DNA of 22,093 nucleotides from a virus. Within the stretch, counting starts at the first letter, position 1, and each line of letters opens with the position of its first letter. A program made the translations under genes and the position numbers. The DNA lies in the IMG/VR virus record IMGVR_UViG_3300020439_000093, positions 1 to 22,093 of that record, one strand, 5' to 3'. The notes under the pieces were generated by a model. It saw only the letters and a program-made list of their open reading frames with translations. It did no database searches and was not told where the DNA came from. Below are positions 3,776 through 7,614 of the stretch, piece after piece.

Positions 3776-4442
3776 AAAAATTCAGTTCGAAAATTTCGTA
3801 AATAATAGGCGATGGAAAGATATAAGTCCAGCGAATAATATTTTGTATTTTCCTAATAACATAGACATTCGTATCTGTCCTAAAAATGGGATGACCACTT
3901 TAAAAGAAGCGTTGAAAAAAAGCATTGGTAGAGTTGATTACGAAGGAGACAAACACGATACGGGTACTGTGTCATTTAGACTCAATCAAATTAAAAAATA
4001 CGCATATGGCCCAGAACAACCCTTTCGAAAAGGTTCTACTCGAATTGCTGTAAAACGTGATCCTGTAGAGCGTTTTACCTCGGCGTGTGAGTATCTTGCT
4101 CGCAATAGAGAAAAGTTTGTGAAACACGGTATTAATTACCCTGAGTTAAAAGAAGATTTGCGATCAGTGATCGGTGAGGTTGTGGACGGTTCGGTTAAAA
4201 ACGAACACTTTTTTTCTCAATCATATTTTATGGGCAATATCTATGACTATGACCTTGTATATGATCTTGATGATATGACTAAACTTTTAGAATTTCTAGC
4301 GAAATCTACAGGAATCGATAGGTTAAAATCCATCTGGGAAAACAAAACCAAAGATAAACTATACGATGATATATTGACAGAAAGTGATGCACGTGATATA
4401 ATGCGACTTTATAAAAAAGACTATGATAATGGATGGCACTAA
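3759..4442 (+). CDS. Sulfotransferase-family-like protein
   Basis: This protein of about 227 aa resembles PAPS-dependent carbohydrate sulfotransferases. It has a 5'-phosphosulfate-loop-like segment RICPKNGMTTL (about 38-48), a 3'-phosphate-binding segment VKRDPVERFTSACEYLA (with R100 and S108), HFFSQSYFMG, and the terminal LYKKDYDNG that resembles the family's (Y/F)xxDY ending. The loop has Lys-Asn-Gly-Met in place of the usual Lys-(T/S)-Gly/Ala-(S/T), which may matter for activity. The start is not ATG: TTG 3759 has GAGG nine bases upstream, and GTG 3741 is the longer alternative. It overlaps dCMP deaminase by 17 nt and ends in gp62. The acceptor is unknown. Confidence 0.65.
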   Translation: MKPVSKKIQFENFVNNRRWKDISPANNILYFPNNIDIRICPKNGMTTLKEALKKSIGRVDYEGDKHDTGTVSFRLNQIKKYAYGPEQPFRKGSTRIAVKRDPVERFTSACEYLARNREKFVKHGINYPELKEDLRSVIGEVVDGSVKNEHFFSQSYFMGNIYDYDLVYDLDDMTKLLEFLAKSTGIDRLKSIWENKTKDKLYDDILTESDARDIMRLYKKDYDNGWH

Positions 4443-4847: not shown

Positions 4848-5219
4848 ATGCTGGAGATCAGTCTTTCAGAACCAGATGACTTTCTTAAGATTCGAGAAAC
4901 GCTGACTCGTATTGGTGTCGCATCTCGAAAAGAAAAGAAGTTATTTCAATCGTGTCATATACTACATAAACAAGGAAGGTACTTTATCGTACACTTCAAG
5001 GAGTTGTTTATGTTGGATGGTAAAAAAGCAAACCTAGAAAAGTCAGACGTAGAGAGACGTAACACTATCGCAACACTGTTAAGTGATTGGGGTTTACTAG
5101 AGATTCAGAACAAAGAAGTTGCACAAGATTGTGCTCCTCTTAGAACAATAAAGATCATTGGTTTTAAAGAGAAGGATGAATGGGAGTTATGTCCCAAATA
5201 CAATATTGGTAATAAATGA
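4848..5219 (+). CDS. regA: RegA translational repressor
   Basis: This 123-residue protein is a clear orthologue of T4 RegA (122 aa). Matching segments include DDFLKIRETLTRIGVASRKEK, LFQSCHILHKQGRYFIVHFKE, ERRNTIATLLSDWGLLEI and the C-terminal EWELCPKYNIGN (T4: EWKLVPKYTIGN). RegA binds around the start codons of early mRNAs, including in T4 those of the clamp-loader and clamp genes and its own. The start is set by alignment with T4 (MIEITL against MLEISL). A GTG at 4806 would add 14 residues and overlap gp62. No strong ribosome site is seen at 4848, which would suit weak, autoregulated initiation. Confidence 0.95.
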   Translation: MLEISLSEPDDFLKIRETLTRIGVASRKEKKLFQSCHILHKQGRYFIVHFKELFMLDGKKANLEKSDVERRNTIATLLSDWGLLEIQNKEVAQDCAPLRTIKIIGFKEKDEWELCPKYNIGNK

Positions 5220-5797
5220 TTGAGATATGGCAGCAGAATGTAGACCAGATCAGAAAGAAGAGAGTCTTCTGGGGTAGACACGATAGTGATGAACTTCGCA
5301 ATTACTCTTGGGATAAACTCATCGATATGGTCGATACACATTCACAAGATGATTACGATTGGAACAGAGAAAAACAACGTCTGGGGTTAAACGCATTTCA
5401 CCGCCGAGGTTCTGCACCTAAATTTGCACATAGTATAGTTAGTGCAATGGAGAAGTTCTTTATTGACGATCATAAAGACGCTCATACCAAAGAAGAATAT
5501 GATAAGGGCCCACAACAGATAACTAACATCGCATTCTGTGGTTTCGGTCAATATTCTGGATCATATCCTAGACACAAAGATTCTATGGACGTGTTCTTAT
5601 ACCAAGTCTTGAATAAGTGTAAGATCACTATCGGATATACCGAAGAACCTTCAGATGATGATATGGTTGAGGTGTTACACCCAGGCTCATTCGTATGGAT
5701 ACCAAGAGGAACTTGGCATCAACTTGAACCAGATGTTTCTAGAGTTACTTTTAGTTTCGGTGTGGAAGGGGATACTGATCCCGCTACTTACGTCTGA
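5216..5797 (+). CDS. JmjC/cupin-type Fe(II)/2OG oxygenase-like protein
   Basis: This 193-residue protein has a C-terminal double-stranded beta-helix like the cupin/JmjC hydroxylases. The metal triad appears intact: H120-K-D122 in YPRHKDSMDVFLYQV, then H168 in PGSFVWIPRGTWHQL, with R176 downstream. Spacing and surrounding sequence resemble bacterial RoxA-type ribosomal oxygenases, but the N-terminal ~100 residues are unlike them and the C-terminal winged helix is missing. The substrate is unknown. The start ATG overlaps RegA's TGA (ATGA). The 3' end overlaps the convergent minus-strand gene by 10 nt. It is one of three DSBH proteins in the window. Confidence 0.65.
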   Translation: MIEIWQQNVDQIRKKRVFWGRHDSDELRNYSWDKLIDMVDTHSQDDYDWNREKQRLGLNAFHRRGSAPKFAHSIVSAMEKFFIDDHKDAHTKEEYDKGPQQITNIAFCGFGQYSGSYPRHKDSMDVFLYQVLNKCKITIGYTEEPSDDDMVEVLHPGSFVWIPRGTWHQLEPDVSRVTFSFGVEGDTDPATYV

Positions 5798-5994
5798 GTT
5801 GTATAAACTATATTAATACCACGTCTAGTCAACTCATTTCTTACTTTCTGTTTGATCTTTGGTTTCGCACTGGAACTATTCAAATAATCAATCAGTTCTT
5901 GTTTGGGAGTTGTCTTCATATAGTAGTGTTCTATAGATGTTTTCTTAGTTTGTCTATCTATCTTAGTTGCACTAGGTTTAAATTTTATGGGCAA
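5788..5994 (-). CDS. Conserved small phage protein on the minus strand (68 aa)
   Basis: This is the only gene I can support on the minus strand. The start is a TTG at 5994-5992, five bases after an AGGAG site (CTCCT at 6000-6004 on plus), giving MPIKFKPSATKIDRQTKKTS at the N-terminus. It continues with a conserved-looking TPKQELIDYLNSSS and a basic KIKQKVRNELTRRGI helix. The pattern resembles short hypothetical proteins in marine T4-like phages. It is strongly basic, which suggests nucleic-acid contact. It converges on the JmjC-like gene with a 10-nt 3' overlap and diverges from hsp20. A longer ATG frame from 6048 would run through the hsp20 promoter and is less likely. Confidence 0.7.
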   Translation of the reverse strand: MPIKFKPSATKIDRQTKKTSIEHYYMKTTPKQELIDYLNSSSAKPKIKQKVRNELTRRGINIVYTTQT

Positions 5995-6011
5995 TATTTC
6001 TCCTGTTTTGC

Positions 6012-6040
6012 TTGACAATTTATGGCAAATCGCATATAAT
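6012..6040 (+). promoter_or_regulatory. Perfect consensus sigma70 promoter for hsp20
   Basis: TTGACA (6012-6017), exactly 17 bp, TATAAT (6035-6040): a full consensus match. The predicted start is near 6047, giving a leader of about 110 nt before hsp20, the longest in the window. The promoter lies in the divergent space just upstream of the minus-strand gene's ribosome site. Confidence 0.9.
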
Positions 6041-6063
6041 ATATACAATTTACTAAAAAAGTC

Positions 6064-6159
6064 TTGATTTTAAAGAATCAATACTTATATATAGTAATAG
6101 GAAATGCCGTAGGTTCGGGTTTCCGATTAATCTTGCTTAATAATAGGAGATAGAAAATG
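6064..6159 (+). promoter_or_regulatory. Structured hsp20 leader, ROSE-like RNA thermometer candidate
   Basis: The leader can fold into three successive hairpins. Hairpin 1 is TTGATT (6064-6069) with AATCAA (6076-6081). Hairpin 2 is GGAAA (6100-6104) with TTTCC (6120-6124), with an inner CCG/CGG. Hairpin 3 pairs ATCTTGCT (6130-6137) with the ribosome site region AGGAGAT (6145-6151), leaving G6135 bulged or mispaired and a seven-base loop. The TTGCT against AGGA arrangement is the hallmark of ROSE thermometers, which control small heat-shock genes in bacteria by hiding the Shine-Dalgarno sequence. Folding was done by eye; no energy was calculated. Confidence 0.5.
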
Positions 6160-6567
6160 ACGAAAATAGGCAATACATTATTCCCACGAGCCTCATTCAT
6201 AGGGTTCGACCACTTGTTCAGTGAACTTGAACACGCAACAAAACACGCTTATGATCATTATCCACCTCACAATATTGTGAAGGAAAGTGAAACTGAGTAT
6301 GTGATAGAAGTAGCGGTAGCAGGTTTTTCTGAGGATGAACTTGATGTAGAACAGAAAGAACGTTCTGTAATCATATCAGGAGAACACAAGGCAGAAGACC
6401 GTGACGTGATCCATCGTGGAATATCAACGAAGAAGTTCAAAAGAACTTTTCGCCTATCAGAGTATGTTCTAGTAGATGGAGCGACTTTGAAGGATGGTAT
6501 ACTTGCAATTAAGTTGAAGTTGGAACTACCAGAAGAGAAGCGTCCTCGTAAAATTAAAATATCTTAA
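6157..6567 (+). CDS. hsp20: Small heat-shock protein Hsp20 (IbpA/alpha-crystallin family)
   Basis: This 136-residue protein is a holdase chaperone of the IbpA type. It has an N-terminal FPRASFIGFDHLFSELE segment and the alpha-crystallin domain from about residue 38, with YVIEVAVAGFSEDELDVEQ and FKRTFRLSEYVLVDGATLKDGILAI. A C-terminal KIKIS corresponds to the I-x-I oligomerisation motif. Its length is usual for the family. The start follows AGGAG (6145-6149) by seven bases. It has its own perfect promoter and a ~110-nt structured leader that may be temperature responsive. Hsp20 genes are common in cyanophages and other marine T4-like phages, where they may assist virion protein folding. Confidence 0.95.
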   Translation: MTKIGNTLFPRASFIGFDHLFSELEHATKHAYDHYPPHNIVKESETEYVIEVAVAGFSEDELDVEQKERSVIISGEHKAEDRDVIHRGISTKKFKRTFRLSEYVLVDGATLKDGILAIKLKLELPEEKRPRKIKIS

Positions 6568-6765: not shown

Positions 6766-7560
6766 ATGAAAGCATATCAAATAGTCGATCTTACCAACCC
6801 TGTTTCCGTGGAATACCACGAAATCTCTAAGCAATCTTTCCAACCTGCCATTGAGGAAGGTCTAATTGAGGAAATAATCCCTGTACAGGCGATTACTCCT
6901 ACAGCGGGACTTGATCAATGGGAAGATAAATTCAACTGGCAAAACTCTCTGACCCACATCGACAACCAAGATGGGGATGGGACTATATCACCGACAGAGC
7001 GATCTGGTAACATCTCACATTGGTTGTTGATGCAGAGACAATCAGAATCAGATGAAAGATTTCTGATTATGGAACACGATGCATATCTTTTAGACCTCAC
7101 GAGGTTTAGACGATGCATCAAGTTTATGAACAGACACGATATGTGTTACGCTAATATGGGTCTGTTTATGTCTTGTTATTCTTATAACAAACACGCCGCT
7201 GGTTGGATGTGGAACGAACTTATTAAAAATCAGTTACCCATTAATTGTGGCCCATACGGAGTTGCGGAACGACTCTACAAGAACTATGCAACTCACTACC
7301 TATCTAAAAGAAACTACTTAGGTAAGAAGTATTGTTATATGACACATATGAATAACTGCAAACACATTGGATTCGGTAAAACCGCTGAAGAAATGTTCGT
7401 TACATATAACTTCACTCCAGATGTGTCAGATTTGGTTATCCCAACCACACAGTGCATAAAACGTTCACTAGGGATTACTCAAGAACACGAGAACTATGGC
7501 GAGGACTTACAAAGAAACCCTTGGAATAGATCGAATGCATTTATTTTAATTGACGATTGA
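6766..7560 (+). CDS. GT25-like glycosyltransferase
   Basis: This 264-residue protein has the layout of glycosyltransferase family 25 and related GT-A enzymes. It begins with a strand after Met (AYQIVDLTNPVSVEYHEISK) and a SGNISHWLLMQ segment like the family's 'S.SH...W'. FLIMEHDAYLLD (99-110) carries the metal-site position, reading E-H-D-A where the family usually has E-D-D-A. The donor and acceptor are unknown. No ribosome site precedes ATG 6766; the upstream bases are the TATAAATA box. The TGA stop lies inside the -35 box of the gp43 promoter. The epimerase and dehydrogenase at 12204-14248 could supply its donor, but this is inference. Confidence 0.6.
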   Translation: MKAYQIVDLTNPVSVEYHEISKQSFQPAIEEGLIEEIIPVQAITPTAGLDQWEDKFNWQNSLTHIDNQDGDGTISPTERSGNISHWLLMQRQSESDERFLIMEHDAYLLDLTRFRRCIKFMNRHDMCYANMGLFMSCYSYNKHAAGWMWNELIKNQLPINCGPYGVAERLYKNYATHYLSKRNYLGKKYCYMTHMNNCKHIGFGKTAEEMFVTYNFTPDVSDLVIPTTQCIKRSLGITQEHENYGEDLQRNPWNRSNAFILIDD

Positions 7561-7585
7561 CAAAACGTGTACCGTCCTGTATAAT
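7557..7585 (+). promoter_or_regulatory. Perfect consensus sigma70 promoter for DNA polymerase
   Basis: TTGACA (7557-7562), 17 bp, TATAAT (7580-7585). The upstream TGA stop (7558-7560) is embedded in the -35. The predicted start is near 7592, about 23 nt before the gp43 ATG. The 14 bases from 7557, TTGACAAAACGTGT, are identical to those of the promoter at 11216. Confidence 0.9.
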
Positions 7586-7614
7586 GGACACAATAATATG
7601 ATTAGGTTTATAAT

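Follow-up and report, generated by a model that had tools for sequence, protein, structure and literature searches.

ROSE-type thermometers in bacteria and thermometers in phages

The short ROSE-like element in the leader of Pseudomonas ibpA (Krajewski et al. 2013) is an RNA thermometer that has been shown to confer temperature-dependent reporter expression and ribosome binding (PMC3669281). Its hairpin II melts and its hairpin I does not, and deletion of the bulged G in P. aeruginosa (delta-G39) locks the leader in repression (PMC3669281). As in the phage leaders described below, the Pseudomonas element has two hairpins only and lies directly upstream of an IbpA-type gene; it likewise has a hairpin II in which U(U/C)GCU pairs with the Shine-Dalgarno, a stable hairpin I, a free AUG and a leader of ~61-62 nt (PMC3669281). 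The ROSE1 element of Bradyrhizobium hspA and the ROSE element of E. coli ibpA share the U(U/C)GCU anti-Shine-Dalgarno, the unpaired G and the association with small heat-shock genes, but their hairpins number three to four, and the sensing one is longer than that of the phage elements (PMC3669281). The single-hairpin thermometer of Synechocystis hsp17 is also found on a small heat-shock gene (PMC4477652).

Temperature-responsive leaders are known on phage genes as well, namely on phage lambda cIII and SP-beta blyA (fourU), although these belong to other structure classes and other genes than the element studied here. A 2023 paper names no phage thermometers other than these, and by its account a single phage RNA thermometer had been described earlier than the one it presents (PMC10586365). 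In the open-access literature on cyanophages, phage hsp20 and pelagiphages, no thermometer on a phage small heat-shock gene was found. The ROSE kind of thermometer is already known, whereas its systematic presence in viruses appears to be new.

The locus considered here is a marine-phage hsp20 leader, which is very probably a short two-hairpin ROSE-like RNA thermometer controlling translation of that gene, its temperature response being argued from the likeness to Pseudomonas ibpA. In addition to being phage-borne, it differs from the Pseudomonas case in that most phage leaders score below the Rfam ROSE_3 threshold, and in that the predicted phage promoters are sigma-70-like or T4-late-like boxes and not sigma-32 promoters.

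The phage hsp20 gene and its transcription

The window is the whole stretch of DNA that was analysed, 22,093 bases in length, and is identical with the virus record. The product of its hsp20 gene matches PF00011 in Pfam (E 6e-18) and phrog_432 in PHROG (E 6e-34), and the gene is surrounded by those for the sliding clamp, clamp loader, RegA, a family-B polymerase (PolB), UvsX and a DnaB-like helicase. Since these neighbours make up a phage replication cluster, the DNA is attributed to a T4-like phage, and the initial annotation was right to see a genuine small heat-shock gene on a phage. The features of the locus are collected in Table 1.

Table 1. Features of the hsp20 leader and gene, in window coordinates
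Feature	Position	Strand	Basis
Sigma-70 consensus promoter, TTGACA-17-TATAAT, 12/12 positions; predicted start ~6047	6012..6040	+	sequence match
TATATATA box, T4-type late promoter or -10 box; predicted start ~6099	6086..6093	+	conserved just upstream of the thermometer
Whole ROSE-like element	6098..6162 (ROSE_3), 6097-6152 (R2)	+	covariance-model matches
Hairpin I: P1 6100-6105/6119-6124, bulged G6106, P2 6107-6109/6116-6118, loop 6110-6115	6100..6124	+	folding, pairing over 56 leaders, covariation
Hairpin II (putative thermosensing hairpin): 6130-6134 and 6136-6137 with 6147-6151 and 6145-6146, bulged G6135, loop 6138-6144	6130..6151	+	sequence, covariation, register test
Shine-Dalgarno AGGAG, predicted to be sequestered in hairpin II	6145..6149	+	sequence, covariation
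hsp20, IbpA-type class A small heat-shock protein, 136 aa, regulated gene	6157..6567	+	PF00011, phrog_432

A JmjC/cupin-type oxygenase-like ORF (5216-5797; PF08007, E 1e-6) directly precedes hsp20 on the same strand, and in HTVC008M a putative 2OG-Fe(II) oxygenase directly follows the hsp20 gene. The region of the sigma-70 promoter before hsp20 is overlapped on the minus strand by an 86-aa ORF (5788-6048), which had no match in Pfam or PHROG and may be a divergent small gene.

A transcription start near 6047, as predicted in the initial annotation, is reasonable given the perfect sigma-70 promoter. The TATATATA box offers another candidate start, with which the transcript would begin at the foot of hairpin I. 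At the position of this box, TATAAATA or a close variant (including TATATATA) is present in 32 of 34 window-type leaders and in 45 of 60 Melnitz-type leaders, as compared with 3.8% of random 130-nt windows that contain TATAAATA or a close variant. In the relative C48C1, TATAAATA occurs 28-43 nt before the structural genes gp48, gp4, gp2 and a baseplate wedge gene, and T4-type late promoters occupy a similar position before their genes. Some relatives have a TTGAC-like box ~17 nt before TATATATA, therefore, judged by sequence, TATATATA may be a -10 box rather than a T4-type late promoter. A start downstream of ~6130 had been named as a finding that would speak against the thermometer; both plausible starts, ~6047 and ~6099, lie upstream of hairpin I, and the element is intact with either of them. 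Further sigma-70 consensus promoters are found in the window at 4374-4402 (12/12), 7557-7585 (12/12) and 7585-7614 (11/12), the latter two forming a tandem pair directly before the DNA polymerase gene.

A two-hairpin ROSE-like leader

The sequence elements reported in the initial annotation are all correctly placed, with the anti-Shine-Dalgarno ATCTTGCT (AUCUUGCU in the RNA) at 6130-6137, AGGAGAT at 6145-6151, the unpaired G6135 and the hsp20 ATG at 6157. In hairpin II, AUCUU[G]CU is paired with the Shine-Dalgarno region AGGAGAU, so that UUGCU (6133-6137) faces AGGA (6145-6148) imperfectly around the bulged G. This arrangement, its position in the 5' leader of a small heat-shock gene, and the presence of two hairpins, of which the 5' one is stable, with the AUG outside both, are the attributes by which ROSE elements (two to four hairpins) are recognized. 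The leader does not qualify as a fourU thermometer, in which four consecutive U residues pair with AGGA, as its anti-Shine-Dalgarno reads CUUGCU.

Three hairpins had originally been proposed for the leader. The last two are conserved, but the 5'-most (~6059-6086) is absent from relatives or replaced there by another hairpin, and it was rejected as a part of the element. In one clade (L009-L035), a third hairpin is found between the TATATATA box and hairpin I, ~100 nt before hsp20, and its sequence varies (e.g. GTGTCAC...GTGACA or GTGAGAA...TTCTCAC).

At the Rfam gathering threshold, neither the window nor 20 relatives gave a match. When searched by E-value, ROSE_3 (RF02523), whose two-hairpin model is common to the window element, matched 6098-6162 over the full model (1-69) with 34.3 bits and an E-value of 1.3e-5. 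The search with ROSE models proposed by the initial annotation thus gave a match, but it falls under the curated gathering score of 43, therefore the element is filed as ROSE-like and not as an RF02523 entry. The ROSE_3 scores of relatives are 34.1 bits for Melnitz, 26.8 for C48C1 and 34.3 for locus L003, and one viral contig (L368) reaches 44.1 bits, which is above the gathering score. Matches of the window to preQ1-II, Yfr10 and freshwater-2 (E 0.11-6.6) were taken as chance.

The leader of a record named 'Pseudomonas phage Y7' (OQ572409, marked UNVERIFIED; L093) has a ROSE_3 score of 69 bits. It scores as a bacterial ibpA ROSE and was not counted as a phage case. The record resembles bacterial chromosome DNA, and the same may hold for the Salmonella and Campylobacter phage entries in which hsp20 occurs at two places.

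Conservation and covariation across phages

Leaders were gathered by protein search, which yielded 80 close loci from the window query, 352 more from five additional queries (cyanophage syn9, HTVC008M, Melnitz, HTVC103P and S-H9-1) and three more from Atu_ph07; the set also includes thirteen annotated records from the phage collection. Counted as distinct 78-nt leaders, with ORFs of at least 100 aa preceded by a Shine-Dalgarno in the same contigs as controls, both hairpins are present in 249 of 274 phage hsp20 leaders and in 0 of 414 leaders of other ORFs. The anti-Shine-Dalgarno motif alone occurs in 261/274 and 4/414, respectively, and hairpin I in 2% of dinucleotide-shuffled leaders. The two-hairpin pattern is carried by T4-like cyanophages, a methylophage, pelagiphages and rhizobial jumbo phages, while a few hsp20 leaders are without the motif (the L189-type deep-ocean group, L365 and the Vibrio phage L090). 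In the deep-ocean HTVC008M-like group (L189-L196), CUGUCU stands opposite AGGAGG instead of UUGCU, possibly as a variant with another mismatch.

Nearly all leaders follow a common plan, in which P1-[G]-P2-loop-P2'-P1' is joined by a linker to Y-G-C-U, after which come a loop, mostly 5-8 nt long, the Shine-Dalgarno and the AUG. The invariant columns among 55 MAFFT-aligned leaders are the bulged G of hairpin I with the C that follows it, and the T, G, C and T of the anti-Shine-Dalgarno, in an alignment method that puts the hairpin arms of divergent leaders in wrong places. When hairpin I was fitted to 56 diverse leaders, 4.95 of the five P1 pairs beside the bulge were formed on average, compared to 2.94 (sd 0.12) with the arms swapped, and single positions show up to six pair types. 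This fit picks the best arm and favours pairing, therefore a covariance model served as a second test.

For the covariance model (R2), 11 phage leaders other than that of the window were used, and the model detects the window element with 38.2 bits and an E-value of 7e-9. Among 68 loci (233 kb), it found the hsp20 leader in 62 of the 66 phage-collection loci at E<0.04, with the next match at E 0.54, and it also matches the ibpA leader of the Pseudomonas record L093 (E 6.5e-4). The hsp20 leader is the best R2 match in each of six complete annotated genomes (C48C1, Melnitz, HTVC008M, syn9, Atu_ph07 and Phosso) and in two large viral contigs, all eight being 141-490 kb in size. In the R2 alignment, which is fitted to the model and so favours structure, 89.0% of cells pair versus 67.9 (sd 0.9) after shuffling, and the covariation is 0.511. 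Shuffling lowers it to 0.155 (sd 0.010), and no slid register exceeds 0.114; the bare sequences agree with the slid controls. Covariation in homologous leaders, by which the initial annotation had proposed to check its reading, is clearly present, with two-sided changes in 14 of the 17 pairs, and it extends across the Shine-Dalgarno pairs. One pair of the Shine-Dalgarno hairpin is C-G in 52 leaders, G-C in 8, U-G in 6 and A-U in 4, and the S-H9-type cyanophages have AGGAC opposite GUCGCU.

Predicted folding and temperature response

In the minimum-energy fold of the window leader alone (nearest-neighbour folding), the Shine-Dalgarno is paired, as the thermometer reading requires, but the hairpin adopts another register with a 2x2 internal loop, and when 24 nt of coding sequence are included, the anti-Shine-Dalgarno pairs elsewhere at 25-42 C. 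The 2x2-loop register was rejected, as it can form in only 1 of 56 diverse leaders, that of the window, whereas 55 of the 56 are able to adopt the published ROSE register. The openness of the window Shine-Dalgarno is flat, 0.37-0.48 from 5 to 55 C (ViennaRNA), because the energy model chooses the other register; nearest-neighbour parameters ignore the non-canonical pairs of ROSE.

Across 55 leaders, the median unpaired probability of the Shine-Dalgarno increases from 0.05 (5 C) through 0.09 (25 C) and 0.16 (37 C) to 0.39 (55 C) in ViennaRNA, versus an openness of 0.50-0.76 over 5-55 C in a comparison set of 79 leaders of other genes. The hsp20 Shine-Dalgarno is buried relative to these 79 genes with p ~3e-13 at 15 and 25 C. 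In the 55 leaders, hairpin II is less stable (median -4.6 kcal/mol at 25 C and -2.8 kcal/mol at 37 C) than in the L093 ibpA leader (-6.5 and -4.7 kcal/mol, respectively). The family folds thus support a Shine-Dalgarno that is predicted to be more buried in the cold and to open gradually, although fold evidence alone does not establish melting of the window leader.

Proposed mechanism and alternative explanations

The ROSE-like reading is supported by four tests, the ROSE_3 match, the R2 covariance model, the compensatory changes and the near-exclusive association with hsp20. The leader forms two hairpins that are conserved through compensatory changes, are restricted to hsp20 and bury the Shine-Dalgarno. 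Transcripts would begin at the sigma-70 promoter and/or the TATATATA box, upstream of hairpin I, which would be a stable 5' element, conserved in its structure and bearing a bulged G. Hairpin II would hide the Shine-Dalgarno behind U(U/C)GCU, and its own bulged G would make it marginally stable, so that the ribosome would be unable to bind at ordinary temperature. Upon warming, hairpin II would open while hairpin I would remain folded, and the Hsp20 then made would protect phage and host proteins. Translational repression, the temperature response and the benefit to the phage are inferred from Pseudomonas ibpA, and the phage very probably possesses its own temperature sensor.

Chance resemblance, that is, an ordinary A+T-rich leader with a Shine-Dalgarno and an unrelated UUGCU, would fit the minimum free energy of the window, which reaches merely z -1.8 against shuffles, but it has practically no probability, as it is refuted by the comparative data (the 249/274 versus 0/414 distribution, the covariation and the R2 match at E 7e-9). 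The structure might instead set a fixed low translation rate and protect the 5' end of the mRNA, with no switching in the natural temperature range of the phage. It is known that 5' hairpins stabilise mRNAs, hairpin I lies at the predicted transcript start, and folding of the window leader predicts little temperature change. This explanation is nevertheless improbable, because the bulged G of hairpin II is kept (Y-G-C-U is invariant apart from U/C) while the flanking pairs covary, which argues for selection of marginal, not maximal, stability, and because deletion of the bulged G locks repression in P. aeruginosa (PMC3669281).

The hairpins might also be mainly a binding site for the phage Hsp20, which would repress its own translation until aggregated proteins titrate it, so that unfolded protein would be sensed; this could be combined with thermosensing. 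The precedent is IbpA of E. coli, Cedecea and Vibrio, which binds its own thermometer-bearing leader via Arg93 (PMC10474464). Among 292 phage Hsp20 proteins, 251 have R at the position equivalent to Arg93 and all 292 have an aromatic residue at the one equivalent to Tyr34. In addition, hairpin I is strongly conserved with an invariant bulged G even though it does not melt in Pseudomonas. However, the window Hsp20 has Lys at the Arg93 position, and R93K abolished repression in E. coli IbpA (PMC10474464). Lys is found there in 40/292 proteins (the window and 39 others), in whose phages the RNA is conserved too, and K98 is not conserved among phage Hsp20 proteins. Conservation of the RNA in the Lys-bearing phages favours sensing by the RNA itself. 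Self-repression as the main function is less likely, but it is the most credible of the three alternatives. A widespread viral family of ROSE-type operators that would read both heat, through melting of hairpin II, and aggregation, through binding of Hsp20 to the bulged-G hairpin I, is slightly more doubtful still; if true, the virus would gauge host proteostasis during assembly, independently of host heat-shock regulation.

Origin and bacterial occurrences

The element is also found before hsp20 in small alphaproteobacterial genomes, as 26 of 289 genomes have a match at E<=0.01, and in 9 of the 11 loci that were read from genomes with a match, hsp20 adjoins it. In a tree of these short proteins, phage and bacterial hsp20 are interleaved, and well-supported branches force at least four changes, in a tree that is poorly resolved. 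On the simplest reading, gene and thermometer would have been taken up together from proteobacteria, more than once.

A scan of genome contigs gave one locus, in the Rhodobacteraceae bin G001 (L450-L452). This bin has seven matches to the thermometer model, and the two that were read (L451 and L452) lie on T4-like phage contigs, where a RegA-like gene is found close to hsp20, so that several phages seem to be present in the bin.

Significance

Dozens of highly divergent natural variants of the leader provide a ready set for dissecting the roles of the bulged G residues and of hairpin I in ROSE elements. Since T4-like cyanophages, a methylophage, pelagiphages and rhizobial jumbo phages all have a covarying ROSE-type element on hsp20, gating of translation by temperature may be commonplace in some of the most abundant viruses of the ocean. 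Ocean warming or heat stress could thereby be connected, in a simple and testable way, with the production of chaperones by viruses.
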